This document shows, one piece after another, positions 2,481 through 23,510 of a stretch of 64,000 nt of DNA. The stretch's first letter is position 1, and each line of letters begins with the position of its first letter. The position numbers and the translations under genes are program-made. The stretch is from Pseudomonadota bacterium (GTDB lineage: Bacteria; Pseudomonadota; Alphaproteobacteria; Rhizobiales; JAKPQE01). The notes beneath the pieces are model-generated. The model was not told the DNA's origin, did not search any database, and saw nothing but the letters and a program-made list of their open reading frames with translations. The stretch covers positions 1 through 64,000 of the forward strand of contig JAKPQE010000170.1 in assembly GCA_029572955.1 (NCBI GenBank), given 5' to 3'.

Positions 2481-2494
2481 GGAGGCCGAGACCC

Positions 2495-3742: not shown

Positions 3743-3754
3743 GGGGGCGGGGCC

Positions 3755-4792
3755 ATGGAAAAGGACAATCCGATGACCAGCGAAACGACCCCGGGCGACG
3801 GCGTGCAGAAGCTGCATTTCTACCAGAAGGGCACCTTCACCGTCGGCAACCGCCTCGTCTCGTCCGACGAGCGCTCGGTGCAGTCGTCGATCGACCGCTC
3901 CAATGCGCTGACCTGCGGCCACCGCGCCTGCCAGGGCTGCGGCGAGGCGCTCGGCGCCCGCTATGCGATCGACACGGCGATGGAGGCGGCGGGCGGCAAT
4001 CTCATCGCGGTCAACGCGACGGGCTGCCTCGAGGTGTTCACCACGCCCTATCCGGAAAGCGCCTGGCAGCTGCCCTGGCTCCATTCGCTGTTCGGCAATG
4101 CCGCGGCGGTGGCGACCGGCGTTGCCGCGGCGATGCGGGTGAAGGGCCGGCGCGAGGTGCGGGTCGTTGCCCAGGGCGGCGACGGCGGCACCACCGACAT
4201 CGGCCTGCAGTGCCTGTCGGGCATGTTCGAGCGCAACGACGACGTGCTCTACATCTGCTACGACAACGAAGGCTACATGAACACCGGCGTGCAGCGCTCG
4301 TCGGCGACGCCGCCGGCTGCGCGCACCGCGACGACCCCGGTGCTCGGCGACGAGCCGGGCAACGTGTTCGGCACCGGCAAGTCGGTGCCCAAGATCGCCG
4401 TCGCGCATGAAATCCCTTACGTCGCCACGGCGACGGTCGCCGACCTGCGCGACCTCGAGGCCAAGGTGAAGAAGGCGATGTCGATCCACGGCGCGCGCTA
4501 CATCCAGATCGACGTGCCCTGTCCGCTCGGCTGGGGCGCGGCCTCGCACGAGACGATCCACCTCGCACGCCTCGCCGTCGAGACCGGCTTCTATCCGATC
4601 TTCGAGGCCGAGCACGGCCGCGTCACCAGTGTGCGCAAGATCCGCCACCAGGTGCCGGTCACCGAATATCTGAAGCTGCAGAAGCGCTTCGCCCATCTCT
4701 TCAAGGGCGACAAGGTCGATCCGCGCGTCGCGCGCCTGCAGGCGCGGTGCGACGCCAATATCGCCGAATACGGCCTTCTGGACGCCGCGTGA
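3755..4792 (+). CDS. porB: 2-oxoacid (pyruvate):ferredoxin oxidoreductase, beta subunit (TPP-binding)
   Basis: This 345-residue subunit binds thiamine diphosphate and a proximal [4Fe-4S] cluster. Candidate cluster ligands are C59 and C62 (A-C-Q-G-C-G), C91 (A-T-G-C-L-E) and C256 (D-V-P-C-P-L). The diphosphate/Mg motif is G-D-G-G-T-T-D-I-G at 142-150, continuing into Y-D-N-E-G-Y-M-N-T-G-V-Q-R-S, typical of PorB. A GAGGGGGCGGGG ribosome site precedes the ATG. The N-terminal 45 residues before the cluster domain are somewhat longer than in many PorB proteins. It is followed 18 bases later by the flavoprotein-ferredoxin gene, the likely electron acceptor of the enzyme. Confidence 0.92.
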   Translation: MEKDNPMTSETTPGDGVQKLHFYQKGTFTVGNRLVSSDERSVQSSIDRSNALTCGHRACQGCGEALGARYAIDTAMEAAGGNLIAVNATGCLEVFTTPYPESAWQLPWLHSLFGNAAAVATGVAAAMRVKGRREVRVVAQGGDGGTTDIGLQCLSGMFERNDDVLYICYDNEGYMNTGVQRSSATPPAARTATTPVLGDEPGNVFGTGKSVPKIAVAHEIPYVATATVADLRDLEAKVKKAMSIHGARYIQIDVPCPLGWGAASHETIHLARLAVETGFYPIFEAEHGRVTSVRKIRHQVPVTEYLKLQKRFAHLFKGDKVDPRVARLQARCDANIAEYGLLDAA

Positions 4793-4810
4793 GAGCCGAG
4801 GACGAGATCC

Positions 4811-9231: not shown

Positions 9232-9261
9232 AAAAAGCCCCGGAGCGGAGCGCCCCGGGGC
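9232..9261 (-). terminator. Intrinsic terminator of the Mbx-like operon
   Basis: Read on the minus strand, GCCCCGG (9261-9255) pairs with CCGGGGC (9243-9237) around an 11-base loop and is followed immediately by TTTTT (9236-9232). This is a proper Rho-independent terminator placed 70 bases after the ferritin-like gene that ends the long minus-strand operon, and it abuts the stop of the converging Lrp gene. Confidence 0.8.
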
Positions 9262-9330: not shown

Positions 9331-9849
9331 TCAGACGCCGCCGGAATGGATGATCTCGTAATAGGTCTTCTCGAGTTCGCCCTTGTGGCGCAGTTCCTCG
9401 TCGGCGAGGAAGCGGAAGAGGTCGCGCAGCGGCCCGTCCGGCGTCGTCTCGGCAAGGGCCGAATACTGCTTGTAGGCGGCGTCCTCGCGGCCCATGGCGT
9501 ATTGCAGGATCGCCTGGTCGTCCGGATTGTCGTCGAGCTTCGGCATCTGCACGAAATCGGCGAACTTGTGGTCCTCCGGCGGGGTGGCGATGAGGTCCTT
9601 GAGGTGGGCGACCGTGTCGGGATGGTCGCGCACGCCGGTGAAGAGGTCGTAGTGGCGCTGCTCCTCCTCGGCGAGTTCCTCGACGAGGGCGCGCATCGGC
9701 TTCGACACCTTCGGGGCGAGCGCCGCATAGAAGGTGCGCGCCGTGTCCTCGAAACCGATCGCGGTGTTCAGCACCTCTTCGAGCGTCTTTGCCGAGGCGA
9801 GGGCGGCATGGGCACCCGAATGGCCTTCGGTCTTCTCGGTGTCGGTCAT
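9331..9849 (-). CDS. Ferritin-like (rubrerythrin-type) diiron protein
   Basis: The 172-residue protein is a four-helix ferritin-like domain with diiron ligand candidates E34, E63-x-x-H66, E122 and E152-x-x-H155, the two E-x-x-H pairs expected in rubrerythrin-like and bacterioferritin-like proteins. No rubredoxin C-x-x-C domain is attached. It is the last gene of the Mbx-like operon and its ATG overlaps the stop of the preceding fusion gene by four bases (ATGA), so it is translationally coupled. A role in scavenging peroxide or oxygen, or in holding iron for the oxygen-sensitive Fe-S enzymes, is inferred. Confidence 0.85.
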   Translation of the reverse strand: MTDTEKTEGHSGAHAALASAKTLEEVLNTAIGFEDTARTFYAALAPKVSKPMRALVEELAEEEQRHYDLFTGVRDHPDTVAHLKDLIATPPEDHKFADFVQMPKLDDNPDDQAILQYAMGREDAAYKQYSALAETTPDGPLRDLFRFLADEELRHKGELEKTYYEIIHSGGV

Positions 9850-11678
9850 TCCGCGGCCTCCAGTTTGCTGCTTCCTCCGCCGAGGAAGGTGTCGATGGCA
9901 CTCGCCGTGCGGTGGCCGGCGGCGACGGCATGGATGACGTCCGGGCCCTCGACCATGTCGCCGGCGGCAAACAGCCAGGGAACGGCGGTCGAGCCGTCAC
10001 GGCCGATCTTGATGCGGCCACGTTCCCATTCGAGCGCTTCGGTCACGTCCTTGCCGAGATAGGAGACGTCGGTCGCCTGGCCGATGGCCTCGACGACCAT
10101 GGCGGCCGGATGGAGGATCACGTCGGCCTCGTCGTATTTCGGATGGAAACGGCCTTCCTCGTCGAAGATCGACAGGCAGAGCACGGTTTCGAGGCCCTTG
10201 ATGGCGCCGTTCTCGACGACGATCTGTTTCGGGCCGCGGCCGGTGAAGACCTTGACGCCTTCCTCGCCGCCCTCGATCACCTCTTCCTCGTCGGCGAGCA
10301 TGCGGTCGCGCGCCTCGAGGGCGACGAGCGTGACGTCGACCTTGCCGAAGGTCTTCTTCTGCAGGCGGGCGAGGCTGCGGGCGATGTCGAAGGCGACGTT
10401 GCCGCCGCCGATCACCGCGGCGCTCTCCTTCAGATCGAAGCTCTCGCCGGCGGTGACGCGGGCGAGGAGGTCGACGGCCGAGAAGACGCCCGGCTGGTCG
10501 CTGCCCGGAATGCGGGTCGAGCGGCCCTGGCCGAGGCCGGTCGCGACCACGACGGCGTCGTTGTCGGACCTGAGGGCATCGAAGCCGATGTCGCGGCCGA
10601 TCGCCTTGCCGCATTCGATGGCAACGCCGGCCGCCTCGATGACGGCGATGTCGGCGTCGAGCTTGTCGTAGGGCAGGCGGTATTCGGGAATGCCGTAGCG
10701 CATCATGCCGCCGGGCTTTTCCTTCGATTCGTAGACGGTCACGGCGTGGCCGAGCTTGGCAAGATCGAAGGCGGTCGTGAGGCCGGCCGGGCCGGAACCG
10801 ACGATCGCGACCTTCTTGCCGCTCTTCTTCTTGGCCTTGTCGGCAAGGGCGATCTTCTTGACCTTGGCCGGCGAGACGGCGTCGATGGCGTAGCGCTTCA
10901 GCCAGCGGATGGCGACGGGTTCACCGCGGCGGCCGATCGAGCAGGCGGTCTCGCAGCGATGGGTGCAGACGCGGCCGCAGACCTGCGGGAAGGGATTGGT
11001 GCGGTAGATCTCCTCGACTGCCTTCTCGACATTGCCTTCCCAGATGGCGCGGATGTACTGCGGCGCGTGCATGTTGGTCGGGCAGGCCTCGTGGCACATG
11101 CCGCACTGGATGCAGCGCGAGGCCTCGATGAGGGCGGTGTGGGCGTCGAAGCCGTCGACGATCTCGTCGAAATTGTCGCTGCGCGCCTCGGGCTCGACCT
11201 CGCCCATCGGCTGGCGCTTCAGGTCGAGGAGGTCGGAATCCTCGTTCTTGCCCCAGCCGATCGGATAGCCGAGGCCGTGCATGCCCTTCTCGTCCGGCAG
11301 GATGAAGAAGGTGTTCATCTCGCGGCTGATGTGGATGTATTCGCGCGACAGGGCGATCGAGCCGGTCGGGCAGATGTCGACGCAGAGCGCGCACCAGCAG
11401 CAGCGGCCGTAGTCGATCGCCGGACGGCGCGGCTTGATGCCGTTCTTGTGGTCCTCCGGCAGATCCGGGATGTGGACCATGCTGATCGCTTCGTTGTCGC
11501 AGATCTCCGCGCAGGTGCCGCAGCCGATGCATTTCTCCCAGTCGTTGACATGGAAGCCCCGATAGTTCTCGGCGGCCGGGCGCGGCTCCATCGGCAGGGT
11601 CACGGGCTCGCGGAAAAGGAAGGACAGAGCCTTCAACGGCCTCAGGAAGCTGCCTTTGTTCTTCGGTGTGACGTCCAT
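9846..11678 (-). CDS. NuoI/MbxN-type ferredoxin fused to a GltD/NfnB-like FAD-NAD(P)H module
   Basis: Numbered from the ATG at 11678 (GAGG in front), the 610-residue protein has two [4Fe-4S] sets typical of NuoI/MbxN (C50, C53, C56, C60; and C93 or C94, C96, C99, C103), then a GltD/DPYD-type cluster region (C189, C192, C195, C199 and C234, C238, C242, C246). A flavoprotein follows with G-S-G-P-A-G for FAD at 294-299, P-G-G-M-M-R-Y-G-I-P, the dinucleotide fold G-G-G-N-V-A-F-D-I-A-R and the closing A-A-G-D-M. An upstream TTG at 11732 is possible but lacks a ribosome site. It occupies the place of MbxN in the operon, so it may dock NAD(P)H or ferredoxin electrons directly onto the membrane complex. 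Confidence 0.85.
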   Translation of the reverse strand: MDVTPKNKGSFLRPLKALSFLFREPVTLPMEPRPAAENYRGFHVNDWEKCIGCGTCAEICDNEAISMVHIPDLPEDHKNGIKPRRPAIDYGRCCWCALCVDICPTGSIALSREYIHISREMNTFFILPDEKGMHGLGYPIGWGKNEDSDLLDLKRQPMGEVEPEARSDNFDEIVDGFDAHTALIEASRCIQCGMCHEACPTNMHAPQYIRAIWEGNVEKAVEEIYRTNPFPQVCGRVCTHRCETACSIGRRGEPVAIRWLKRYAIDAVSPAKVKKIALADKAKKKSGKKVAIVGSGPAGLTTAFDLAKLGHAVTVYESKEKPGGMMRYGIPEYRLPYDKLDADIAVIEAAGVAIECGKAIGRDIGFDALRSDNDAVVVATGLGQGRSTRIPGSDQPGVFSAVDLLARVTAGESFDLKESAAVIGGGNVAFDIARSLARLQKKTFGKVDVTLVALEARDRMLADEEEVIEGGEEGVKVFTGRGPKQIVVENGAIKGLETVLCLSIFDEEGRFHPKYDEADVILHPAAMVVEAIGQATDVSYLGKDVTEALEWERGRIKIGRDGSTAVPWLFAAGDMVEGPDVIHAVAAGHRTASAIDTFLGGGSSKLEAAE

Positions 11679-11783
11679 GTTCGGGACCTCGTAGAGCTTG
11701 CGCGGGCGGGTCTTGGTGCCCTTCTGCTCCAAATGTTCGTTTCGTTGTCCGGTCCCGGCGGGTCGGCCCGCCGGGCAGCGGCG

Positions 11784-12926
11784 CTAGCGATCGACCTCAG
11801 GCGGGCAGGCGTCGAGCGAGAACATGATCTGGGCGATGTCCTCGAGGCGGCCGCGGGCGAGCAGCCGTTCGAGCACCTGCACCGCATGCATCTGGGACGG
11901 CCCGCGCACATGCACACGCCAGGGCTTGGCGCCGCCGGTCGAGACGACGAAGAAGCCGAGCTCGCCCTTGGAGGATTCGACCCGGGCGAAGGTATCGCCG
12001 GCCGGGATGTTCCAGGCGAGCGGATTGGGCAGCGGACAGCGCACCGGGCCCTCGATATGGGGCAGCCGGGCGATGACCTGGCGCAGGATCTTGATCGATT
12101 CCAGCACCTCGGCCTTGCGCACCATCATGCGGGCGAGGGCGTCGCCGTCCTTCATCGTCGGCACTTCGAACTCGAGTTCGGGATAGACGAGGTAAGGATC
12201 GTCGCGGCGCACGTCGAAGGGCAGGCCGGAGGCCCGGAGGTTCGGGCCGGTGACGCCCCAGGCGAGCGCCTCCTCGGCGCTGATCGTGCCGGTGCCGGTG
12301 GCGCGGTTGATGACGACGGTGTTCGAGAAGAACAGGTCCTCGAAGTCCGGCAGGCGGCTTTCGAGGTCGTCGAGCAGCGCGGCGAGCCGGTCGAGCAGGC
12401 CCTCGGGCAGGTCGCGGCGGACGCCGCCCGGGGTGATGTACATGTGGTAGATGCGGGCGCCGGTGATCTCCTCGAACAGGTCGAGGAAGAGATCGCGCAT
12501 CGACACGCCCCAGAACATGTTGGTGTAGAAGCCGATCGTCGCGGCGTTGCCGCCGAAGGTGAAGAGATGGGCGCAGATACGCGACATCTCCAGCATCATG
12601 ACGCGGATCCACTGGGCGCGGGCCGGCACCTCGAGACCGCCGAGCTGTTCGACGGCGCGCGAGTAGCACTCCTCCATCGGCACCGGATCGGGCACGCAGA
12701 TGCGCGGCACGAGGGCGACGTTCTGGATCCAGAGCCGCTCCTCCATGATCTTCTCGAAGCCGCGATGCAGGTAGCCGCCGTCGGCGATCGCCTCCTGCAC
12801 CTCGTCGCCCTTGAGACGGACGCGAATGGCGTAGTTGCCCTCGATGCCCGGATGGTTCGGGCCGAAATAGAGCTCGTATTCGTGGCTCGGCGGATGGCTG
12901 ACCGGACGGTAGTTCTCGGGTCTCAT
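11784..12926 (-). CDS. mbxL: NuoD/MbxL-like large subunit (49-kDa type), partial loss of [NiFe] ligands
   Basis: The ATG at 12926 overlaps the NuoC-like stop by four bases; the longer frame upstream lies inside that gene. The 380-residue protein aligns with the complex I 49-kDa/group 4 hydrogenase large subunit: H-x-x-x-E-L-Y-F-G-P-N-H-P near the start, G-Y-L-H-R-G-F-E-K, N-V-x-L-V-P-R-I-C, and a C-terminus D-A-C-P-P-E-V-D-R. In [NiFe] enzymes the two metal pairs are C-x-x-C. Here they read C77-V-P-D80 and C374-P-P-E377, so one cysteine of each pair is replaced by an acidic residue. A [NiFe] site is therefore unlikely, as in MBX and complex I relatives. Confidence 0.88.
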   Translation of the reverse strand: MRPENYRPVSHPPSHEYELYFGPNHPGIEGNYAIRVRLKGDEVQEAIADGGYLHRGFEKIMEERLWIQNVALVPRICVPDPVPMEECYSRAVEQLGGLEVPARAQWIRVMMLEMSRICAHLFTFGGNAATIGFYTNMFWGVSMRDLFLDLFEEITGARIYHMYITPGGVRRDLPEGLLDRLAALLDDLESRLPDFEDLFFSNTVVINRATGTGTISAEEALAWGVTGPNLRASGLPFDVRRDDPYLVYPELEFEVPTMKDGDALARMMVRKAEVLESIKILRQVIARLPHIEGPVRCPLPNPLAWNIPAGDTFARVESSKGELGFFVVSTGGAKPWRVHVRGPSQMHAVQVLERLLARGRLEDIAQIMFSLDACPPEVDR

Positions 12927-13465
12927 TTCTCGACACCTCCGCCCTTGGCCTCGACGTCCTTCAGCCAGTCGGGCTGATAGTCGACCCACTCGTAGGTCTG
13001 GTTGACGTACTCGCGGGTGTTGAACGACTTCAGCATCGGCGGCGGGCCGCCCCAGCTGGTCAGAATGAAGGGCCGGAGATTCGGCGCGCCGACGAAGACG
13101 ACGCCGAACATCTCGTGGATGTCGCGCTCGTAGAAGCCGGCCGGGGTGTGGATGTCGTAGACCGAGACGAAGCGGCCGGGATTGCGCGGAATGGTGATGT
13201 GGGCCGAGGCGAGGGTTTTACGCTCGTAGGACCAGACGTGATAGACGAGCTCGAACTCGTCGGTCTCGGGCCAGTCGACGCAGGAAATCGCCGACAGGTG
13301 GATGAAGCCGAGGCGGCCCTTGAGGAGTTCGAGGAGCGCCGGCAGGCTGTCGCGGGCAACGTCGATGCGCAGCCGCCGCTCGCCCTGCTTGGTCACCTTG
13401 ATGCCGGGGATCTCGTGCTGGATCGTGTCGACGATGGTCGCCGGGGTGCCGGTTTCGACGGTCAT
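12923..13465 (-). CDS. mbxK: NuoC/MbxK-like subunit (30-kDa type)
   Basis: The chosen ATG at 13465 overlaps the NuoB-like stop by four bases (ATGA) and gives 180 residues. The C-terminal half shows the NuoC hallmark P-A-G-F-Y-E-R-D-I-H-E-M-F-G-V-V-F and then N-L-R-P-F-I-L, with an N-terminal alpha/beta domain containing S-C-V-D-W. The protein has no cofactor of its own and links the NuoB- and NuoD-like subunits in the peripheral arm. The stop overlaps the next start, so B, C and D are made in fixed ratio. Confidence 0.9.
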   Translation of the reverse strand: MTVETGTPATIVDTIQHEIPGIKVTKQGERRLRIDVARDSLPALLELLKGRLGFIHLSAISCVDWPETDEFELVYHVWSYERKTLASAHITIPRNPGRFVSVYDIHTPAGFYERDIHEMFGVVFVGAPNLRPFILTSWGGPPPMLKSFNTREYVNQTYEWVDYQPDWLKDVEAKGGGVEK

Positions 13466-14214
13466 GGCCGGCTCCTCTCGTTGCGACCGCGGGCCGGATA
13501 GAGTTCCGGCACCGTGTCGAGGGACCAGGTGGCGCGCTGATCGAGGAGCGCGGTGTGCTCGCCGGTCGTGCCGTTGCCGACATAGCCGTAGTGCTTGGCC
13601 TCGGCGACGACGTCGGTCGGGGTGTGCCAGTCCTGGCCGAAGAGGTTCATCTGGCGGCCGAGATAGGCATCGTAGTTGAGGTAGTAGTCCTGCCAGGCGG
13701 TTGCCTTGCCGGCGTCGATCTTGGCCATCAGGTCGAGGAACACCTGCTGGATGGCCTCGGGGCGCGGCATGCAGCCGGCGATGTAGCTGTCGACCGGAAT
13801 GTACTGGTCGAGGCGTTTCACCGTCGCATAGGAGTTCCAGTACATGCCGCCATTGATGGTGCACGAACCGAAGCCGACGACGTATTTCGGCGCCTGCATC
13901 TGCTCGTAGGAGAGGATGACGCGCTTCAGCGTCTTCACCGACAGGTAGCCGGTGATGAGCAGGAGGTCGGCCTGGCGCGGCGTGACCATCGGCGAGACAC
14001 CGACCCGCTCCATGTCGAAGCGGGAGGTGATGGTCGGCGGCAGCTCGATGGCGCCGCAGCCGGTGCAATAGTGCAGCACGAACAGCGAGCGGGAGCGGCA
14101 GTGATCCGCGAAATTGTCCATCACCTTGCGCAGCAGGCTTTTTTCCTCTGCGTCGGCAACCCGGCAGGTTTCCGGCTGGTCGGTGACGACAGGTACTTTT
14201 TCGGAGCCGGTCAT
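13462..14214 (-). CDS. mbxJ: NuoB/MbxJ-like [4Fe-4S] subunit
   Basis: This 250-residue subunit should carry the terminal (N2-like) [4Fe-4S] cluster. The four ligands are visible as Y-C-T-G-C-G-A-I-E (two cysteines), G-F-G-S-C-T-I-N-G-G and I-A-G-C-M-P-R-P-E. The C-x-x-C-G-x-I-E form at the first site is that of group 4 hydrogenases and MBX; complex I NuoB has adjacent cysteines. The C-terminal 70 residues beyond the conserved core are an extension. AAAGGA lies before the ATG, 19 bases after the NuoH-like gene. Confidence 0.9.
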   Translation of the reverse strand: MTGSEKVPVVTDQPETCRVADAEEKSLLRKVMDNFADHCRSRSLFVLHYCTGCGAIELPPTITSRFDMERVGVSPMVTPRQADLLLITGYLSVKTLKRVILSYEQMQAPKYVVGFGSCTINGGMYWNSYATVKRLDQYIPVDSYIAGCMPRPEAIQQVFLDLMAKIDAGKATAWQDYYLNYDAYLGRQMNLFGQDWHTPTDVVAEAKHYGYVGNGTTGEHTALLDQRATWSLDTVPELYPARGRNERSRP

Positions 14215-14233
14215 GGTTGGTTCCTTTCCCGCC

Positions 14234-15136
14234 TCAATTCACTTTCAGCATCACGAAGGCGAGGCCGACGAGACCGATGGCGGTCGGCCAGCGCCACATC
14301 CAGCGGATGACGTCTTCGGTCTTGTAGCGGCCGAACACGTTGGTGATCGCCACCGAGATGAAGATCACCGCGGCCACCTTCGGCAGGAAGGTCAGCCACA
14401 TCTCGCCGCCGCCGAGGAACATCGTCACGTAGAGCACGCCGACGGTGTAGAACTGGAAGCACTGCATGACGAACAGCGCGCCCATGTACTTGCCGCTCAT
14501 CTCGACCATCGGGCCGGTGGCGATCTCGGCCGGGGCGATATAGAGCTCGAACGGCTCCTTGCCGAGCATGCCGTGCATGGCGATGAGGCCGGCGAAGGCG
14601 AGCAGCGGCATCGTGGTGACGCCCCAGGTCGACACGCCGCCTTCCTGCTGGATGCGCACGACGTCGATGAGGTTCGACGAGCCGTAGTGGATCAGCGCGC
14701 CGGCGATGACGACGACGAACGGCACGTCGTAGGCGAGCATCGAGGTCAGCGCGCGGCTGATGCCGATCGAGCCGTTCGGGTTGGCGCACGAGCCGACGCC
14801 GAGGGCGAGGCCGAGCATCGGCACCATCATGATGTAGACGAGGGTGACGAGATCGCCCTCTGCGGCGAGGCCGTCGAGGCCCGGCACCGGCAGGAAGATC
14901 TCGGCCGTGATGAAGCCGCCGAGCAGCATCATGATCGAGACGTCGTGCATCAGGCCATGGGAGATCTGCGTCTTCTTGGCGTAGAGCTTGACGATGTCGT
15001 AGATCGGCTGGAGCACCGGCGGGCCGACGCGGCGCTCGATCTTGGCGCGCACGCGGCGCGCCATGAGCACGAGCACCAGCCCGAACAGGAAGGCGATCAG
15101 CGGCATCAGGACCAGATCTGCGAAGAGTTCGAGCAT
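14234..15136 (-). CDS. mbxM: NuoH/MbxM-like membrane subunit
   Basis: The ATG at 15136, with GGAAAG eight bases before it, gives 300 residues; the longer frame upstream overlaps the preceding gene. It is a multi-spanning protein (about eight helices) of the complex I subunit 1 family, with R-R-V-G-P-P-V-L-Q-P-I-Y-D-I-V-K-L after the first helix and E-x-x-x-A-P-A-E-I-A-T-G-P-M-V-E-M-S-G in the acidic loop that forms the quinone/E-channel region in complex I. It anchors the peripheral arm to the antiporter-like subunits. Confidence 0.92.
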   Translation of the reverse strand: MLELFADLVLMPLIAFLFGLVLVLMARRVRAKIERRVGPPVLQPIYDIVKLYAKKTQISHGLMHDVSIMMLLGGFITAEIFLPVPGLDGLAAEGDLVTLVYIMMVPMLGLALGVGSCANPNGSIGISRALTSMLAYDVPFVVVIAGALIHYGSSNLIDVVRIQQEGGVSTWGVTTMPLLAFAGLIAMHGMLGKEPFELYIAPAEIATGPMVEMSGKYMGALFVMQCFQFYTVGVLYVTMFLGGGEMWLTFLPKVAAVIFISVAITNVFGRYKTEDVIRWMWRWPTAIGLVGLAFVMLKVN

Positions 15137-15138
15137 GA

Positions 15139-17019
15139 TCAGATCTTTCCGAAGAGGCCGACCCACAGGAGGCCGAGGGAGACGGCGACGAGCAGGTAGA
15201 ACGGCGTATGGGCAAAGCGGAAGACGCCGCCCGAGAGGTCGCCGAGGACGGCGACGAGGGTCTGCAGGCCGCGCTCCATCTTGACCACCCAGCCCCGGTA
15301 CCAGGGCCCGATGACACGGGCGAGGCCGGGATAGAATTCATGGCTGAAGTGGTAGCGGACGTCGGCCGACAGGAAGTGGCCACCGGCGTAGTTGTCGTAC
15401 TGGCTGACCTCCCAGCGGCGATTGCCGAGGAAGTAGAAGATCAGGGCGCCGACGCCGATGGCGGCGATCAGCACGCCGACCACCCAGAGCATGTTGAGCG
15501 AGCCGTTGGGCAGGTCGACGCCGCCGAGATGGTGCGGCTGCAGGCCGATGCCGAGGGCGCTCTGGGCGATGTCGACCATCGACAGGGCAAGGCCCGGCAT
15601 CCAGCCGGTGACGAAGCCGATTCCGGCGAGCGTCAGCATCGGCAGCAGCATCGACAGCGGCGCTTCCTTGACCTCGCGGTGCTCGAGGCGGAGCTGGCCG
15701 AGGAAGATGTTGTGGATCAGCTTGTAGACCGAGAGGATCGTGCCGAGCGTGCCGATGAAGGCGGCGATCAGCAGCAGCGGCTGGGCCGTGTTGAGCAGCG
15801 ACTTGTAGATCATCCACTTGGAGACGAAGCCGTTCATCGGCGGCAGGCCGGCAAGGCCGATGATGCCCATCAGGAGCGTGATGTAGGTGAAGGGCATGCG
15901 CGTGATGAGGCCGCCGAGCTCGTCGAGATCGGCCGTCTTGGTGCGGTGGACGACGGCGAAGACGGCGAGCATCAGCGCCATCTGGTAGGTCGCGTAGTTG
16001 AAGGTGTGCAGCAGGCCGCCGGCGAGGCCGAGGGGCGTGCCGACGAGGATGCCGAGCAGCATGTAGCCGCCCTGGCCGATACCGTGCCAGGCGAGCAGCA
16101 TGCGCGCGTCGGTCTGCATAAGGGCGATGTAGGTCGGCACGATCATGGTGATCGCGGTCAGCCACAGGAGCGCCGAGCGGGCATCGAACCAGGTGTAGGC
16201 GATGTCCATGCCGGCGAGCAGGGCCGGGCCCATCAGCTTGATCAGCACCAGCGTCAGGGCGAAGAGGCCCATGCGCGCCGAGACGGCGTTGAGGAAGCTC
16301 GAGGAGGCGCCGGGCGTGAAGGAATAGGCGGGTGCCTGCCAGAGATGGAACGGCACGATCGCCATCTTGACGCCGAAGCCGGCGGTGAAGAGGACGAACA
16401 GCACCCACTTGGTCGCCGTCGGCAGGTTCGGCACCGCCGCGGCGAAATCCTCGAAGGCGAAGCTGCCGGTGGCCGAGCGAACGATCAGGATGCCGGCAAA
16501 CAGCGCCATGGCGCCGGCCAGCGCGTAGAGCAGGTAGCGCAGGGCCGCGGTCGCGGCCGGGCCGCCGAGCTGGGTCATCATGGCGAAGGCCGCCCAGGAG
16601 ACGATTTCCCAGCCGATGAAGAGGCTGAGGAAGTCGCCGCTCGAGACGAGCAGCAGCATGGCGAGCACGTTGAGCGCCAGCGTGCCGTGCTGGATGCGCT
16701 TGTTGGGCTGCGCCTCGTTCCACTCGCCGCTCATGTACCAGGCGGCGAAGAAGCCGGCGCCGGTGGTGAGCAGGGCGAAGAACCAGCCGAGGCCGTCGAT
16801 CCGCCAGGTCATCGGATAGCCGAGGACGGTGAAGGCCATCGCCGAGGGGACGGCGGTCTCGCCGCCGGAAAGCGTCTGGCCGACGAGGACGACGATCACC
16901 GTCATTGCCGCATAGGCGGCCATGCCGATGTAGCCGGCGAAGCGGTTGGCGCCGAAGACATAGAGGCCGACGGTCGTCAGCAACGCCAGAACGAGCAGGG
17001 TGTCGAGCAAGCCGATCAC
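15139..17019 (-). CDS. NuoL/M-type antiporter-like subunit (MbxH'-like)
   Basis: The GTG at 17019 is preferred over the annotation-length frame because GGGAGG lies seven bases before it and it starts two bases after the MrpD stop. The 626-residue membrane protein belongs to the proton-conducting NuoL/M/N and MrpA/D family, with the helix-5 glutamate in F-I-G-W-E-I-V-S, the helix-7 lysine in F-G-V-K-M-A-I-V-P-F-H-L-W-Q-A-P, and H-x-F-N-Y-A in the discontinuous helix. It extends past the 14-helix core with an additional C-terminal membrane region. It is the second antiporter-like subunit of the operon, which distinguishes MBX-type from MBH-type clusters. Confidence 0.85.
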   Translation of the reverse strand: MIGLLDTLLVLALLTTVGLYVFGANRFAGYIGMAAYAAMTVIVVLVGQTLSGGETAVPSAMAFTVLGYPMTWRIDGLGWFFALLTTGAGFFAAWYMSGEWNEAQPNKRIQHGTLALNVLAMLLLVSSGDFLSLFIGWEIVSWAAFAMMTQLGGPAATAALRYLLYALAGAMALFAGILIVRSATGSFAFEDFAAAVPNLPTATKWVLFVLFTAGFGVKMAIVPFHLWQAPAYSFTPGASSSFLNAVSARMGLFALTLVLIKLMGPALLAGMDIAYTWFDARSALLWLTAITMIVPTYIALMQTDARMLLAWHGIGQGGYMLLGILVGTPLGLAGGLLHTFNYATYQMALMLAVFAVVHRTKTADLDELGGLITRMPFTYITLLMGIIGLAGLPPMNGFVSKWMIYKSLLNTAQPLLLIAAFIGTLGTILSVYKLIHNIFLGQLRLEHREVKEAPLSMLLPMLTLAGIGFVTGWMPGLALSMVDIAQSALGIGLQPHHLGGVDLPNGSLNMLWVVGVLIAAIGVGALIFYFLGNRRWEVSQYDNYAGGHFLSADVRYHFSHEFYPGLARVIGPWYRGWVVKMERGLQTLVAVLGDLSGGVFRFAHTPFYLLVAVSLGLLWVGLFGKI

Positions 17020-17020
17020 G

Positions 17021-18475
17021 TCACATCCTCCCAGGCAGGACGCGCGCCACATAGGACCCGGCGTCGGCGGCGCTGGCGGCGGCGCCCGAGAGGGCGGTGC
17101 CGATCGGCGCGACGAACAGGGTTGCGACGATGAGGATCACGCCGAGCAGCAAGGCCGGCGACAGATCCGAGAAGGCGAAGTGTGCGGGTTTGGCCCCGGC
17201 GGCGGGCTGCCAGATGCGGGCGACGACGCGGAAGAGGTAGGCCGCCTCGACGACGGTCGCGGCGAGTACCACGGCGGCGGCGAAGGCATAGGCTCCGCCG
17301 GCGTCGAAGGCGCCGCCGAGCAGCACGAGCTTCGCCCAGAAGCCGGGCAGCGGCGGAATGCCGATGATGCTGAGGGCGAGGAGCACGAAGAGGCCGGCCG
17401 CGGCGGGGGCGACCCTGGCGCCACCGGCGAGCCCGGCGAGCGGGCCGCGCCACTTGGCGGCGATGACGAAGAAGGCCGGCTTGACCACCGCGTGATGCAG
17501 CGCCACCGCGATCGCGGCGAGGATGCCGGCGGTGGCCGGGATCGTCAGAGCGAGGGCGACGAGGCCGAGCTGGGCGATCGAGGAATAGGCGAAGGTGCGG
17601 TTGAGGTCGCTGGCGCGATAGGCGGCGAACTCGCCGGCGACGATCGTCACGATGGCGACGGCCATCAGGAGGCTGATCGCGGCCGGATCGTGGAAGACCA
17701 GAACGAGGAGCCGGAGGATCACCACCATGGCGAGCTTGGAGACGACGCCGGCGAGGATCGCGGTGACCCGCATCGGGGCGGCGGCGTAGACCTCGGGCAC
17801 CCAGGTGTTGACCGGGAACAGCTCGGCCTTGACGCCGAAGCCGAGGACGAGGAGCAGGAACGCGGCAAGGCCGGTCGTGCCCGACAGCTTCTCGGGGGCG
17901 AGGCGGGCGATGTCGGCAAGGTTCAGCGTGCCGGCGGCGGCGTAGACGAGGCCGATGCCGATCAGCACCAGCGAGGAACCGAGGGCGCCGAGCACGAGAT
18001 AGCGCAGGGCGGCGCCGAAGCCGGCCTTGTCGCCGGACGAGGCGGCGAGGCCGTAGGACGCGACGGCGACGATCTCGTAGAAGACGAAGATGTTGAAGAG
18101 GTCGCCGGAAAGGACGAGGCCGGAGCCGCCGGCAACGAGCAGCAGCGTCAGCGTGTAGGCCTTGACGCCGCCATGCTCGGCGCGCGGCCAGAAGATCAGC
18201 GCGCCGACGGCGAGCACCGCGACGAACAGCGCGGCGAGGCGGTCGCCATAAAGAACGATGCCGAGCGGGGCTTCGAAGCCGCCGAGGGCGGTGACCGCCG
18301 CCTCGGTTCCGACGGCCGACCACAGGGTCCAGCCGAGGAAGATGTTGACGACGACGAGGACGATGCCGAGGGCGCGGGCGAGGCCGTCGCCGAAGCGGGC
18401 GACGAGCGGCAGCAGGAACGCGCCGAGCAGCGGCAGGACGATGGGCAGTACCAGGGTGTTGGCGCCGGAGGTCAT
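17021..18475 (-). CDS. mrpD: Mrp-type Na+/H+ antiporter subunit D homologue (MbxH-like)
   Basis: This 484-residue, about 14-helix protein is the MrpD/NuoN-like antiporter subunit. The conserved glutamate appears in F-V-F-Y-E-I-V-A-V-A-S-Y and the key lysines in F-G-V-K-A-E-L-F-P-V-N-T-W-V-P and H-H-A-V-V-K-P-A-F-F. Its ATG overlaps the MrpC stop by four bases. In Mrp complexes this subunit moves protons through the membrane; in MBX-like complexes it is thought to be driven by the attached redox arm. Confidence 0.9.
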   Translation of the reverse strand: MTSGANTLVLPIVLPLLGAFLLPLVARFGDGLARALGIVLVVVNIFLGWTLWSAVGTEAAVTALGGFEAPLGIVLYGDRLAALFVAVLAVGALIFWPRAEHGGVKAYTLTLLLVAGGSGLVLSGDLFNIFVFYEIVAVASYGLAASSGDKAGFGAALRYLVLGALGSSLVLIGIGLVYAAAGTLNLADIARLAPEKLSGTTGLAAFLLLVLGFGVKAELFPVNTWVPEVYAAAPMRVTAILAGVVSKLAMVVILRLLVLVFHDPAAISLLMAVAIVTIVAGEFAAYRASDLNRTFAYSSIAQLGLVALALTIPATAGILAAIAVALHHAVVKPAFFVIAAKWRGPLAGLAGGARVAPAAAGLFVLLALSIIGIPPLPGFWAKLVLLGGAFDAGGAYAFAAAVVLAATVVEAAYLFRVVARIWQPAAGAKPAHFAFSDLSPALLLGVILIVATLFVAPIGTALSGAAASAADAGSYVARVLPGRM

Positions 18476-18936
18476 GACGCGCTCCCCGCGTTGACGGTTT
18501 CACGGGCCGGCGTCCCGGCGACGGCGGTGCCGGCGGCCGGGGCGGCATCGGCCGGCTCGGCAGCGAGGAACTTCGCCACCTCGCGGGTGTCGAGCGTGCC
18601 GTAGGTTTCCTTGACGCGGATGAGAAGCGCGGCGGCGAGGGCGAGGACGCCGACGCCGATGACGATCGCGGTGAGCACCAGCGCCTGCGGCAGCGGGTCG
18701 ACCATCGGCACGTCGGTGACGCCGCCGACGATGATCGGGGCCGCCGCTTCCGGCCGGAAGCCGATCGCCACGAGGAACAGGTTGACGCCGCTCTCCACCA
18801 GGGCGAGGCCGAGGAGCACGCGCATCAGGTTGTAGCGGGCGACCATGGCGTAGATGCCGATGGCGATCAGCAGGATCGCGCCGCCATAGAGGGCCCGGCC
18901 GAGATATTCGGCGACGAGCAGTGCGTCGGGGCTCAT
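18472..18936 (-). CDS. mrpC: Mrp-type antiporter subunit C homologue (NuoK-like, MbxG-like)
   Basis: The ATG at 18936 overlaps the MrpB-like stop by four bases and gives 154 residues with three transmembrane helices of the NuoK/MrpC family (G-I-Y-A-M-V-A-R-Y-N-L-M-R-V-L-L-G-L-A-L-V-E-S-G-V-N-L, and P-L-P-Q-A-L-V-L-T-A-I-V-I-G). The membrane glutamate of the L-V-E-S motif is the conserved proton-path residue. A 35-residue Ala/Pro-rich C-terminal tail goes beyond the usual end of the family. Confidence 0.9.
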   Translation of the reverse strand: MSPDALLVAEYLGRALYGGAILLIAIGIYAMVARYNLMRVLLGLALVESGVNLFLVAIGFRPEAAAPIIVGGVTDVPMVDPLPQALVLTAIVIGVGVLALAAALLIRVKETYGTLDTREVAKFLAAEPADAAPAAGTAVAGTPARETVNAGSAS

Positions 18937-19631
18937 GACTTCCCTCCGACTTCGACGATGCGGGCCATGAGGCCGGCGAGTTCGGATCCGACCTTGAGGC
19001 CGATCGCCAGATAGAGCAGCGGCAGGCTGCCGGCCGAGAACAGGTCGCCGAGCGTGCCCTTGCCGAGGAAGGGCGTGAGGAACGCCTCGCCCCACATCAG
19101 GCTGGCAAGGCCGATGACGATGAAGGCGGTGCCGGCAAAGCCCTCGACGAGCGCCGCGGTCGAATGGTTGAGCGGGCTGGTCGGGCTGGCGAGCAGCGGG
19201 ATGAAGAAGGCCGCGGCCATGATGGCGCCGCCCTGGAAACCGCCGCCCGGGGTCAGATGGCCGTGCAGGATGATGTAGGCGCCGAGCACGACGAGGAACG
19301 GGAACAGGAGGTCGGCGGCGGCCTTGAGAATGAAGCCGCCGGGCGCCTTCGGCAGGTCGCCGGCGCCGGCACCCGACAGGATGAGGCCGGCGGCGGTGGC
19401 GGCGACGAAGAGGATCGTCACCTCGCCGAGGGTGTCGAAGCCGCGATAGCCGAGGAGGATCGCGGTGACGATGTTGGCGGCGCCGGTCTCGCCGGGAGCC
19501 CGCGAGACGATCTCCTGGCCGACCTGCATCGGCGCTGCGCCGAAGGGCAGGGCCTGGAACAGCGCGTAGAGCATCACCACCAGTCCGGCGAGGAAGAGGA
19601 GCGACGCGGTGGTGCGACCGTAGCCGTGCAT
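18933..19631 (-). CDS. mrpB: MbhE-MrpB fused membrane subunit
   Basis: The 232-residue protein joins two pieces. The first about 95 residues resemble MbhE / the C-terminal end of MrpA (N-I-V-T-A-I-L-L-G-Y-R-G-F-D-T-L-G-E-V-T-I-L-F). The rest is MrpB (Y-I-I-L-H-G-H-L-T-P-G-G-G-F-Q-G-G-A-I-M-A-A). Both parts are membrane-embedded, in about seven helices overall. There is no full-length MrpA in the operon; its C-terminal functions are covered here and in the DUF4040 gene before it, as in archaeal MBH/MBX. It starts nine bases after that gene. Confidence 0.85.
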   Translation of the reverse strand: MHGYGRTTASLLFLAGLVVMLYALFQALPFGAAPMQVGQEIVSRAPGETGAANIVTAILLGYRGFDTLGEVTILFVAATAAGLILSGAGAGDLPKAPGGFILKAAADLLFPFLVVLGAYIILHGHLTPGGGFQGGAIMAAAFFIPLLASPTSPLNHSTAALVEGFAGTAFIVIGLASLMWGEAFLTPFLGKGTLGDLFSAGSLPLLYLAIGLKVGSELAGLMARIVEVGGKS

Positions 19632-19640
19632 GGGACGCTC

Positions 19641-19901
19641 CTATTTCTTGCCGTCGCCGGCGTCGGACCGCCAGAGGCCGGTGCGACGCACGGTGAGTGC
19701 GAGGAGGACGCCGGAAAGCCCGGCCGCGACCGCGGCTTCGGCGAGCGCCACGTCGGGCGCGCGCAGCAACGCGAAGATGACGGCAAGGGCGAGCGAGACG
19801 ACCGAAACGGCGGCGACCGCGGCAAGGTAGCTGCGCAGGAACACCGTCAGCAGGGCGGCGGCGATCATCACCACAACGGCGAGAATGACGAGCCAGAGCA
19901 T
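19641..19901 (-). CDS. DUF4040/MbhD-like small membrane subunit
   Basis: This 86-residue protein with three transmembrane helices corresponds to MbhD (DUF4040), a small piece homologous to part of MrpA, with A-L-L-R-A-P-D-V-A-L-A-E-A-A-V-A-A-G as its conserved core including the membrane-embedded acidic residues. Its ATG shares one base with the MrpG stop (TGATG), so the two are translationally coupled. Confidence 0.85.
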   Translation of the reverse strand: MLWLVILAVVVMIAAALLTVFLRSYLAAVAAVSVVSLALAVIFALLRAPDVALAEAAVAAGLSGVLLALTVRRTGLWRSDAGDGKK

Positions 19902-20206
19902 CACACGGTCTCCTCGTCTTCGGCCTGGTGCCAGGGGCGCAGGCCCGTGGCGAGCGCGGCGCGGGCGATGATCGAGGAGCCGACCGGCGAGGTCACCAGC
20001 ACGAAGACGGCGAGCACCACGAGCTTGGCCCACCAGTCCGGGTGATGGAAGAAGACGCCGATCAGCACCGACAGTGCGCCGAGCGTCGAGCCCTTGGTGC
20101 CGGTCTGGATGCGATTGAAGACGTCGGGCATGCGCACCATGCCGAGGGCGGCAAGGCACAGGAACACCGCGCCGACGAGGAGGAAGATGTCGCCGATGAC
20201 TGTCAT
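19901..20206 (-). CDS. mrpG: Mrp-type antiporter subunit G homologue (MbxC-like)
   Basis: The 101-residue protein has the three helices and the R-M-P-D-V-F-N-R-I-Q-T-G-T-K-G-S-T-L-G motif of MrpG/MnhG/PhaG. It starts 12 bases after MrpF with a GAGGGAGAG ribosome site. It is a structural part of the sodium-path side of Mrp-type complexes. Confidence 0.92.
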   Translation of the reverse strand: MTVIGDIFLLVGAVFLCLAALGMVRMPDVFNRIQTGTKGSTLGALSVLIGVFFHHPDWWAKLVVLAVFVLVTSPVGSSIIARAALATGLRPWHQAEDEETV

Positions 20207-20218
20207 GACCTCTCTCCC

Positions 20219-20491
20219 TCAGGAGCGCTTTTCGAGGGCGCGGGCGATCGCCACGACGCCGACGAAGGACAGGGCGCCGAAGACCAGCGCGATGTCGAGG
20301 ACGATGGCGCTGTCCTGGACGAGGGCCAGCCACACCAGCGCGGCGGTGGTGATGATCGTCAGGATGTCGGCGGCGACGACGCGGTCGGCGACCGTCGGGC
20401 CGAGGACGAGGCGGGCGGCGCCGAGAAGCACGGCAATGCCGAGCAGCGCCACGGCGATGCCGCCGAGGATGCCGATCTCGAGACCCATCAT
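20219..20491 (-). CDS. mrpF: Mrp-type antiporter subunit F homologue (MbxB-like)
   Basis: Beginning at the first of two adjacent ATGs at 20491, which overlaps the MrpE stop by four bases, the product has 90 residues and three helices, with the MrpF pattern G-P-T-V-A-D-R-V-V-A-A-D-I-L. The long open frame that continues upstream lies inside mrpE and is not used. Confidence 0.9.
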   Translation of the reverse strand: MMGLEIGILGGIAVALLGIAVLLGAARLVLGPTVADRVVAADILTIITTAALVWLALVQDSAIVLDIALVFGALSFVGVVAIARALEKRS

Positions 20492-21057
20492 TTCAGGAAC
20501 TCCTTGAGGACCTTCTCGAAGCCGGCGACGATTTCGCGCGTCGCGGTCTCGAGGTCCGTGCCGGGGGTGGCGTCGATCCAGTGGATCAGCAACTCCTGGC
20601 CGTCGAGGTCGACGGTCAGGGTGCCCGGCGTCAGCGTGATGGAATTGGCCAGCCACAGCTTGCCGAGGTCGGAGTGCAGCTCGGTGTGCACCCTGACGAC
20701 CGCCGGCCGGATCGCCATGCCCGGGGTCACGACACGGCGCGCGACGTCGAAGTTGGCGAAGATCAGCGCCTTGAAGAAGGTGAAGAAGTAGCGGCCGAGA
20801 TGCAGCGGCAGCAACGGCGTCAGCATGACGTCGTCGAGCCATTGCAGATGGCGGATCGAGATGGCCGCGGTGCCGGCAGCGACAAGAATACCGACGATGA
20901 TCTCCTGCACCGCAAGGGTTCCGGTAAGCAGGATCCAGACGAACAGCAGTCCGGCAAACGTCATCGCAAAGCGGCGGGTCATGCGACCGCCGCCGAATAC
21001 GGCAACAGCGCCGGCGTCATCTCCGGTCGCAGATGATTCGTGGGGATTAGTCGACAT
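20488..21057 (-). CDS. mrpE: Mrp-type antiporter subunit E homologue (MbxA-like), first gene of the operon
   Basis: The protein core (about 165 residues from M-T-R-R-F-A-M-T at 20982) is MrpE/MnhE: two or three N-terminal helices, then a soluble part with N-S-I-T-L-T-P-G-T-L-T-V-D and I-H-W-I-D-A. The true start is uncertain. The ATG at 21057 adds 25 residues of unconserved sequence with no clear ribosome site; 20982 would give the usual family length. As first gene it sets the operon promoter somewhere in the AT-rich region 21060-21240. Confidence 0.85.
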   Translation of the reverse strand: MSTNPHESSATGDDAGAVAVFGGGRMTRRFAMTFAGLLFVWILLTGTLAVQEIIVGILVAAGTAAISIRHLQWLDDVMLTPLLPLHLGRYFFTFFKALIFANFDVARRVVTPGMAIRPAVVRVHTELHSDLGKLWLANSITLTPGTLTVDLDGQELLIHWIDATPGTDLETATREIVAGFEKVLKEFLK

Positions 21058-21515
21058 AGATGGAATTTCCATTGGTATAGAACACAGTCCAAGGCGCGCG
21101 AATGCGGCCCCGAAATCGTGACTCAATGGCTCGACACAGCATGATTACGGTAAATTCGCCCGAAAGAACCGCACCACTCACCGATTCTCATTCCGGTACC
21201 TCTTATACGCCTTTCTTGCGAAAATTAGAATGACACAATTTGTGCAGTGCGAAACTTCGACGACATGGCTGCCATGCAGTAAAGGCGGGGCGTTTGGCAT
21301 GGCGCCGCAGGCGTCATAATCGAGCTGCGGTTTTTTCGTCTATTCAATGGGTTGAGGTAACGCGCTGCGGTCTTTCGACTGCTGGTCGTTGCCGTTCGCG
21401 GCCTCGCATGGCAGTTTGTAGCCACGTTTGAACATGCGTGGCGGACCAGTCGGCAGGGGCGTTGGAGCCCTGTCCCAGCGTCCAGACAGGGAGAAGACCC
21501 ATAGCGCCCCGACCG
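21058..21515. other. Intergenic region between the Mbx-like operon and the amylosucrase gene
   Basis: This divergent gap holds no supportable gene. It is more AT-rich than its surroundings, especially 21190-21250 and 21320-21360, and must contain the leftward promoter of the operon and the rightward promoter of amylosucrase. A TATAAG-like element on the minus strand near 21203-21208 is the only recognisable -10 candidate; no well-spaced -35 was found. A GTG at 21438 in frame with amylosucrase could extend that protein by 26 residues. Confidence 0.5.
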
Positions 21516-23471
21516 ATGTCCGATGCCGACGAGCACTGGTTCCAGGCGGAAAGCCGGACCACCCTGCGGCGCCTGATGCCGCGGCTCGAGACGAGGTTTT
21601 TCGATCGGGTCAACACGCCGGACTGGGAAGCCTTCACCGGGCGGCTCAACGCCTACTTCCCGCAGCTCTTCGGGGTGCTCTACCGGCTCTACGGCACCCG
21701 CTACGACTTCTTCTATCACCTCGAGAAAATCCTCGTCACGGCCTCGCTCGCCTGGATGGAGCGGCCGGACGACCTGCGCGGCCTCGACGCGATGCGGGCG
21801 AGCAACCCGCAATGGTTCCAGTCGCAGCGCATGGTCGGCGCGGTCTGCTATGTCGACCTCTTCGCCGGCGACCTCACGGGCCTGCGCGAGCGCATTCCGT
21901 ATCTCTCGGAAATGGGCGTCACCTTCCTGCATCTGATGCCGATCTTCCGCTCGCCGGACGGCGACGACGACGGCGGCTACGCGATCTCGAGCTATCGCGA
22001 GCTCGATCCGGCGCTCGGCACGATGGAGGAACTCTCCGACCTTGCCGACGAGCTGCGCCATTTCGGCATCTCGCTCTGTCTCGACTTCGTCTTCAACCAC
22101 ACCGCCGACACCCACGAATGGGCGCAGAAGGCGCTCGCCGGCGACGAGGAGTATCAGGCCTACTACCGCATGTTCCCGGACCGCCGGATGCCGGACGAAT
22201 ACGAGCGGACGATCCGGGCGGTGTTCCCGGAGGAGCATCCGGGCTGCTTCACCTATCGCAGCAAGCTGCGCAAATGGGTGTGGACGACGTTCCACAACTA
22301 CCAGTGGGACCTCAACTACGAGAACCCGGCGACCTTCGACGCGATGGCGGCGGAGATGCTGTTCCTGGCCAATGCCGGGGTCGAGATCCTGCGCCTCGAC
22401 GCGGTCGCCTTCACCTGGAAGAAGCTCGGCACGGGCTGCGAGAACCTGCCGGAAGCCCATCTCATCGTGCAGGCGTTCAACGCGCTGACCTCGATCGTCG
22501 CGCCCTCGCTGCTGTTCCTGTCCGAGGCGATCGTCCACCCGGACGAGGTGATCAAGTACATCCGGCCCGACGAGTGCCAGCTGTCGTACAATCCGCAGCT
22601 CATGGCGCTCCTCTGGAGCACGCTCGCGACCCGCGACGTGACGCTGCTCCGGACGGCGATGCAGCGGCGCTTCCGCATTCCGAACGAATGCACCTGGGTC
22701 AACTATGTGCGCTGTCACGACGACATCGGCTGGGTGTTTTCGAACGACGACGCCGTCGATTGCGGTATCGACCCGGACGGGCACCGGCGCTTCCTCGGCG
22801 ATTTCTACACCGGGCGCTTCACCGGGAGCTTCTCCCGCGGCCTGCCGTTCCAGGAGGACCCGACGACCGGTGACATGCGGATCTCCGGCATGGCGGCCTC
22901 GCTCGCCGGCCTCGAACTGGCGCTGGCGGCCGAGGACGAACTCGAAATCGAAGCCTCGGTGCGGCGCATCCTGCTGCTCTACGGCGTCGCCATCACGATC
23001 GGCGGCATTCCGCTGATCTATCTCGGCGACGAGCTGGCAGCGCTCAACGACTACAGCTTCAACGAGGACCGCGAGAAGCTCGGCGACACGCGCTGGGTGC
23101 ACCGGCCGGCGCTCGACGAAGCGCGGCTCGCCGAACGGCACGACCGCACGACGGCCTCCGGCCAGGTGTTCCACGGGCTGATGCGGCTGTTGCAGGTTCG
23201 TCAGCAGAATCGGGCATTCAACAGCGCCGATACCGAATTCATCGACACGCAGAATCCGCACGTCTTCGGCTATTTCCGCCGCCACGAGGGCCAGAGCGTC
23301 CTCGTTCTGGCGAACTTCTCGGAAAAGCCGCAGATGGTCGCGGCGCGGCTGCTGCGCACGCTCGGTTTCCGCAAGACGGTCACCGACATCCTGAAGGGTG
23401 CGATCATCGTCGCGACCGACGAGCTCGAACTCGAACCGTACCAGATGGCGGCGCTGCTCGCTGCGGACTGA
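21516..23471 (+). CDS. ams: Amylosucrase (GH13)
   Basis: The 651-residue product (ATG 21516; an in-frame GTG lies 78 bases upstream) matches amylosucrase, which converts sucrose into alpha-1,4-glucan plus fructose. The GH13 motifs are in order: D-F-V-F-N-H-T-A-D-T-H-E-W, the nucleophile aspartate in I-L-R-L-D-A-V-A-F, the acid/base glutamate in L-F-L-S-E-A-I-V, and the stabilising aspartate in V-R-C-H-D-D-I-G-W. The N-terminal helical domain and C-terminal beta domain typical of the enzyme are present and the length is normal. No signal peptide is seen, so it acts in the cytoplasm. It is followed 39 bases later by sucrose-phosphate synthase. Confidence 0.9.
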   Translation: MSDADEHWFQAESRTTLRRLMPRLETRFFDRVNTPDWEAFTGRLNAYFPQLFGVLYRLYGTRYDFFYHLEKILVTASLAWMERPDDLRGLDAMRASNPQWFQSQRMVGAVCYVDLFAGDLTGLRERIPYLSEMGVTFLHLMPIFRSPDGDDDGGYAISSYRELDPALGTMEELSDLADELRHFGISLCLDFVFNHTADTHEWAQKALAGDEEYQAYYRMFPDRRMPDEYERTIRAVFPEEHPGCFTYRSKLRKWVWTTFHNYQWDLNYENPATFDAMAAEMLFLANAGVEILRLDAVAFTWKKLGTGCENLPEAHLIVQAFNALTSIVAPSLLFLSEAIVHPDEVIKYIRPDECQLSYNPQLMALLWSTLATRDVTLLRTAMQRRFRIPNECTWVNYVRCHDDIGWVFSNDDAVDCGIDPDGHRRFLGDFYTGRFTGSFSRGLPFQEDPTTGDMRISGMAASLAGLELALAAEDELEIEASVRRILLLYGVAITIGGIPLIYLGDELAALNDYSFNEDREKLGDTRWVHRPALDEARLAERHDRTTASGQVFHGLMRLLQVRQQNRAFNSADTEFIDTQNPHVFGYFRRHEGQSVLVLANFSEKPQMVAARLLRTLGFRKTVTDILKGAIIVATDELELEPYQMAALLAAD

Positions 23472-23510
23472 CGGAACGCTTCACCACCGGCGGGAACGAC
23501 CGCCACGGAA

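Follow-up and report, generated by a model that had tools for sequence, protein, structure and literature searches.

What does a respiratory complex of the MBX/MBS type do in an alphaproteobacterium that already possesses its own complex I? This question is raised by a stretch of 64,000 nucleotides (contig JAKPQE010000170.1 of assembly GCA_029572955.1, positions 1 to 64,000; hereafter the window) from a member of the Rhizobiales, in which one packed unit of 14 genes occupies positions 9331-21057 on the minus strand. An initial annotation had described this unit as a complete MBX-type operon encoding an ion-pumping, ferredoxin-oxidising complex. The analysis described here suggests, with about even confidence, that the encoded complex is an ion-pumping, probably reversible NADH:sulfane-sulfur oxidoreductase. 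It would serve bacteria that oxidise sulfur by the reverse dissimilatory sulfite reductase (rDsr) pathway, with a rubrerythrin-like subunit guarding its exposed cluster.

The genes are arranged in the order MrpE-F-G-MbhD-MbhE/B-MrpC-H-H'-M-J-K-L-NX-R. The ion-transporting half begins with homologues of MrpE (MbxA, 20488-21057; PF01899, E = 1e-36), MrpF (MbxB, 20219-20491; PF04066), MrpG (MbxC, 19901-20206; PF03334), in which the proline of the Na+ path in transmembrane helix 3 is kept, and MbhD/DUF4040 (MbxD, 19641-19901; PF13244). These are followed by an MbhE-MrpB fusion (MbxE/F, 18933-19631; PF20501 and PF04039), an MrpC/NuoK homologue (MbxG, 18472-18936; PF00420) and two antiporter subunits, the MrpD-like MbxH (17021-18475) and MbxH' (15139-17019). 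The NuoH homologue (MbxM, 14234-15136) leads to the homologues of NuoB (MbxJ, 13462-14214), which carries the proximal 4Fe-4S cluster, NuoC (MbxK, 12923-13465; PF00329) and NuoD (MbxL, 11784-12926). The last two genes are NX (9846-11678) and R (9331-9849). Spacing within the operon ranges from -4 to +19 nt, with the single exception of 105 nt between L and NX, and directly past the last stop codon there is an intrinsic terminator (9237-9261), made of a GC stem of 11 bp and a run of TTTTT after it. The start codon of NX is probably the ATG at 11678, which matches the starts of its homologues.

The initial annotation had therefore correctly recognised the mbx-type gene order on the minus strand, the overlapping or abutting genes and the closing terminator. 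Three of its details required revision: MbhE and MrpB are both represented, but by one gene; the gene called NuoI-like does contain MbxN, which is in fact fused to a complete flavoprotein; and the last gene (9331-9849), which the order given there does not name, encodes a rubrerythrin-like diiron protein.

Several lines of evidence indicate to which family the complex belongs. The MBS complex of Pyrococcus furiosus (PDB 6u8y) was the top PDB match for L, J, H, H', M, MrpG (chain C) and MrpC (chain G), and also for N outside its flavoprotein part. For example, L scored 386 bits against 6u8y_L, compared to 258 bits against Nqo4 of Thermus complex I and 140 bits against the MBH hydrogenase, and it is 49% identical to L of P. 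furiosus MBS. J scored 201 bits against 6u8y_J and 120 bits against NDH-1, H scored 227 bits against 6u8y_H, H' scored 173 bits against 6u8y_X (MbsH'), and 6u8y_M was the sole PDB match of M at 1e-15. In J, all four MBS cysteines (C25, C28, C93 and C123) are conserved with no insertion or deletion, and the first two have the C-x2-C spacing of MBS rather than the adjacent cysteines of NuoB. The two CxxC motifs in L that mark group-4 [NiFe] hydrogenases (MBH, Ech) are absent, with one cysteine at each place. The two of the four NiFe cysteines that remain (aligned C80 and C377, corresponding to C85 and C385 of MBS) lie in the motifs RICVP and CPPEVDR. In the proton and sodium paths through H, H', M, C and G, most MBS residues are kept and others are changed (listed below).

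The phylogeny of L agreed with these observations. In a quick tree of this single subunit (71 sequences), the MBX clade received a Shimodaira–Hasegawa-like approximate likelihood ratio test support of 99 and stood apart from Nuo (95) and the hydrogenases (99); the L protein of the window fell within a clade of proteobacteria (100) to which Spirochaetes are joined (98). Signature residues and tree together exclude a second Nuo or a hydrogenase. An Mrp half acting as a stand-alone antiporter is likewise excluded, by a single packed unit whose order is conserved across phyla. The same 14-gene order recurs in three further genomes (G013, G060 and G015) and at many gamma- and betaproteobacterial loci, so that the arrangement is far beyond chance. 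On gene order, signature residues and phylogeny, the 14-gene unit is an MBX/MBS-type complex with a duplicated H subunit, as had been proposed.

The subunit through which electrons would enter does not support a reading of the complex as a simple ferredoxin oxidiser. NX consists of MbxN, with two 4Fe-4S clusters, joined to a GltD/NfnL-type Fe-S flavoprotein (X) with an NAD(H)-type motif. The NCBIfam model for this fusion, PRK13984 ("putative oxidoreductase"), scored 841 bits over residues 25-618, below its cut-off of 946. The fusion is intact in 58 of 59 loci that have both domains and is also found in Spirochaetes, Bacteroidales, WOR-3 and others; it is thus a general bacterial form. A study of DsrL linked the presence of a YRR motif to NADP(H) and its lack to NAD(H) (PMC7596348). 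This motif, which in GltD/NfnL flavoproteins is of the NADP(H) type and relates to the 2'-phosphate, is not present in the window NX. Its position reads A-L-E there and A/S/C-L-E in the clade (with one A-L-Q), while YRR is retained in deep-branching NX proteins. Because of this replacement, NX is predicted to use NAD(H), and ferredoxin as sole donor is not implied. The N clusters could take electrons from ferredoxin as well.

The last gene encodes a rubrerythrin-like protein (PF02915) without a rubredoxin domain, whose diiron ligands are invariant in the alignment: E34, E63, H66, E122, E152 and H155, that is, two ExxH motifs and two further glutamates. R stands directly after NX in 27 of the 27 gamma- and betaproteobacterial loci that are long enough to show it, as well as in G013, G060, G015, one Magnetococcales genome and one further bacterium, and these loci span two separate MBX clades. 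Other than the operon's own parts, no gene near it is conserved. In four Spirochaetes, NX is extended at its C-terminus by a domain homologous to R (hhalign score 43 with E about 1e-6; 60 shuffled controls reached at most 20). The model of this extension is a four-helix bundle (predicted local distance difference test, pLDDT, 84), with top fold matches that are mostly ferritin-like at weak E-values; a single-sequence fold of the whole Spirochaete protein reached a pLDDT of only 35 and was not used. A further match of R is to the ferritin domain found in NfnSL-ferritin fusions, and a rubrerythrin co-purified with MBS-L of Thermococcus kodakarensis (PMC12016516). Judged from this genomic pattern, R is a genuine part of the complex, and it would bind at NX, since the two occur both as a fusion and as separate proteins. 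Most complexes outside the proteobacteria lack R. That R removes peroxide or O2 and so guards the exposed cluster is a guess, prompted by the chemistry of R and by its restriction to the complexes of proteobacteria.

A scan of 84,980 species genomes found at least 80 MBX loci, so that the spread described here is a lower bound. Among the matches listed, the nearest relatives were almost all gamma- and betaproteobacteria of sulfidic places, including Thiomargarita, Thiodiazotropha, Sedimenticola, Parasulfuritortus, Chromatiaceae and tubeworm symbionts. The complex is common in sulfur-oxidising gammaproteobacteria, and a confinement to archaea and anaerobes is not supported. Few Alphaproteobacteria have it: 2 of the 385 genomes from the class and 4 among 61 relatives, with the host included in both counts. 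G013 and G060 belong to one genus yet carry MBX of different clades, and no MBX was found in G001, a member of the host's family with a genome 84% complete; for these reasons the operon has probably moved between lineages. One copy, in G403, is broken as read: a stop codon interrupts L and the reading frame of NX is shifted, whether in reality or through sequencing. Exchange of the N-X-R block between the two proteobacterial clades was hinted at by differing trees of L and NX, and in an approximately unbiased test both alternatives remained acceptable (p = 0.27 and 0.40).

Further variants were met in the same survey. At L044, L046, L047 and L051 (Thiotrichaceae and kin), an MbxL 72-76% identical to that of the window stands apart from the rest of the operon, which seems to be broken up in this group; L044 has an hcp-like gene between K and L, and L051 an RnfC-like gene after L, both named from N-terminal sequence only. 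A third MBX lineage (L100, L102, L113, L114, L118 and L123), found in Thiocystis, Thiorhodococcus and Sulfurovum, has MrpE after N, and neither X nor R was seen in it. In another alphaproteobacterium of the host's order, there is an operon resembling those of group-4 hydrogenases (L042, G028:C11), in which the C-terminal CxxC is intact (DPCISCTDR).

Among the proteobacteria, MBX is associated with reverse Dsr. A dsrA match above the curated cut-off was present in all five alphaproteobacterial carriers. With the host left out, the four remaining carriers all fell among the 17 dsrA-bearing genomes of 442 (Fisher p = 1.5e-6, a guide only, as the test treats related genomes as independent). dsrA was also present in 30 of 36 gamma- and betaproteobacterial carriers, in two Chromatiaceae of the third MBX lineage and in the Magnetococcales genome, compared to none of the 11 tested carriers outside the sulfur-oxidising proteobacteria. 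The dsr cluster of the host (dsrB-E-F-H-C-M-K-L with dsrP) is of the oxidative type. In the sampled genomes of the class, the complex occurs only together with the reverse-Dsr pathway, which suggests that it ties stored sulfur to NADH and energy.

These parts can be assembled into a mechanism. The unit provides an Mrp-type arm with H and H', an M anchor, a peripheral arm of J-K-L-N with MBS-type ligands, and two extra modules. Electrons from NADH, and possibly also from ferredoxin at the N clusters, would pass through the flavin and clusters of X to the two N clusters and then to the proximal cluster of J, where the S-S bond of a polysulfide or persulfide would be cleaved in the L/J pocket as in MBS, and this reaction would power the transport of ions by H, H' and the Mrp module. 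The potentials of NADH and polysulfide are similar, so the reaction should be reversible, with its direction set by the ion-motive force. When this force is low, sulfane sulfur would oxidise NADH derived from stored carbohydrate or from other catabolism, a respiration of stored sulfur; when it is high, the complex could run in reverse and form NADH from sulfide or persulfide. R, bound at NX, would remove peroxide or O2 near the exposed cluster. In P. furiosus MBS, which has the same J ligands, catalysis on sulfane sulfur has been shown, and the proximal cluster, in which one iron has no cysteine ligand, cleaves the S-S bond of polysulfide in the L/J pocket (PMC7684303). We favour the direction in which stored or carrier-bound sulfur is reduced when acceptors are short.

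The main rival is that the complex works mostly in reverse, with the ion-motive force pushing electrons from sulfide or persulfides to NAD+ so that NADH is made without quinones. This is rather unlikely in our view, although the hosts are rDsr sulfur oxidisers, RuBisCO is present in four of the five alphaproteobacterial carriers, and in the DsrL of oxidisers an NAD(H)-type motif accompanies the reduction of NAD+ (PMC7596348). The host genome itself gave no RuBisCO match and no SoxB match above the cut-off, whereas the other alphaproteobacterial carriers have RuBisCO and/or SoxB, and fermenting Spirochaetes have the same NX type. Furthermore, in the Riftia symbiont Candidatus Endoriftia, MBX is a co-expression neighbour of the reverse tricarboxylic acid cycle, like hydrogenase and sulfur globule genes, whereas most sulfide oxidation genes go with the Calvin–Benson–Bassham cycle; the direction of the complex is stated there to be unknown (PMC11636981).

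Three other explanations are less likely. An Rnf-like, ion-pumping ferredoxin:NAD+ oxidoreductase, in which X receives ferredoxin electrons through N, would agree with the N clusters of MBS, which accept such electrons (PMC7684303), with an operon for a 2-oxoacid:ferredoxin oxidoreductase (POR) 3 kb beyond the MBX operon, and with an earlier description of Mbx as a ferredoxin:NADP+ oxidoreductase (as quoted in PMC6349859). It is improbable because such a route bypasses the membrane-coupling proximal cluster, yet the MBS-type ligands and the L cysteines are kept; the POR genes are not conserved neighbours, and the association with dsrA is strong. Still less probable is a second complex I whose acceptor is a quinone or some other compound without sulfur. 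In its favour are the homology to Nuo and the hydrophobic pocket formed by J and L in both families (PMC7684303), but L groups with MBX, J has the MBS spacing, and an ordinary Nuo is already encoded on host contig C160. The constant adjacency of R to NX, the fused homologue in Spirochaetes and the kin fused to NfnSL could also mean that R is an electron outlet through which NADH oxidised by X reduces peroxide or O2, with the MBX core secondary. This is very improbable, as R has no rubredoxin domain, the fused copies lost the diiron ligands while the complex persists, and most complexes outside the proteobacteria do without R.

Several observations weigh against the reading as an NADH:sulfane-sulfur oxidoreductase. 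Some residues of the MBS charged axis are changed (MbsH E219 to K and H330 to V, MbsH' K248 to R, MbsM E104 to M; MbsM D196 to E also differs), and ion pumping could be altered by these changes. The preference for NAD(H) rests on one motif, and Spirochaete and Thermotogae carriers have this motif type without dsr, so that the use of NAD(H) is not a mark of sulfur oxidisers alone. Core function does not require the diiron site, as the fused R domains of Spirochaetes have lost its ligands. In addition, most gammaproteobacterial carriers are metagenome-assembled genomes and the carriers are related, so that the association with dsrA is not made of independent events, and 13 of 18 dsrA-bearing alphaproteobacteria are without MBX, which makes MBX an optional accessory.

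The surroundings of the operon were also considered. Assembly contamination is unlikely, as the GC content and tetranucleotides of the operon match those of the host nuo and dsr contigs (r about 0.98) and the same operon is found in the clean genome G013 (7 contigs). Neighbouring genes (class-V aminotransferase, CBS, Lrp, POR and sucrose genes) were rejected as operon parts, since none recurs in more than 6 of 33 loci. About 0.6 kb past the terminator lies a divergent class-V aminotransferase (7149-8633, minus strand) resembling SufS/cysteine desulfurase. The nearby POR operon (1902-6436, plus strand; gamma, alpha, beta) ends in a GltD-PorD fusion with YRR. Adjoining the other side of the MBX operon is an amylase/amylosucrase-like glycosidase beside a fused sucrose-phosphate synthase/phosphatase (21438-25682, plus strand). 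Further away, an open frame of 8,213 aa (39296-63937, plus strand) with RTX calcium-binding repeats, many cadherin/Ig-like domains and an HExxHxxGxxH zinc-protease-like motif near the N-terminus probably encodes a giant secreted surface protein.

We know of no enzyme to which the reduction of stored sulfur in purple sulfur bacteria has been assigned. Dark growth of these bacteria on stored sulfur, glycogen and polyhydroxybutyrate is on record (older work cited in PMC6413534). An MBS-type pump accompanying reverse Dsr, in hosts of which some are in culture, makes this question testable by gene deletion. Furthermore, the finding extends into proteobacteria with their own complex I a lineage that has been viewed as its archaeal precursor, and it hints at how an open cluster sensitive to oxygen may have been adapted to hosts of this kind. 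In its full form, our proposal is a dedicated, energy-coupled NADH:sulfane-sulfur oxidoreductase for respiring, or in reverse drawing NADH from, stored or carrier-bound sulfur, in which an integral diiron subunit would let the bare iron site work in oxygen-exposed cells; this we put forward tentatively.

Three things were already known: MBX as such, its occurrence in a sulfur-oxidising proteobacterium and the catalysis on sulfane sulfur by MBS. In the searchable papers, subscription reviews of MBX excepted, descriptions of an NAD(H)-type NX, of R as a subunit, of the fused form or of the tie to rDsr were not found. The closest precedent is the "putative Mrp-Mbx complex" reported in 2024 for Candidatus Endoriftia (PMC11636981), so that the idea of an MBX wholly undescribed in proteobacteria is not supported. 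The Endoriftia complex probably belongs to the same clade, and tubeworm endosymbiont loci (L065, L067 and L069) carry the full unit; the accessible passages of that report name the complex only and contain nothing on the NX fusion, R or NAD(H) use. Compared to MBS/MBX of P. furiosus (6u8y; PMC7684303), the unit shares the subunit set and order, the two antiporter subunits, the cysteines of J and L and the two-cluster N, but differs in the fusion of N to an NAD(H)-type flavoprotein, in the added R and in its host, an rDsr alphaproteobacterium with its own Nuo. Thermotoga maritima has a 13-subunit homologue, and its mbxA is induced by sulfur or thiosulfate; that host is a hyperthermophile, and the accessible passages describe neither R nor an NX fusion (PMC9431562). 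Finally, X shares its domain order with the DsrL/NfnL/GltD flavoproteins, but it is only about 31% identical to the host's DsrL, stands apart in the tree, and is joined to MbxN rather than to rDsrAB or NfnS.

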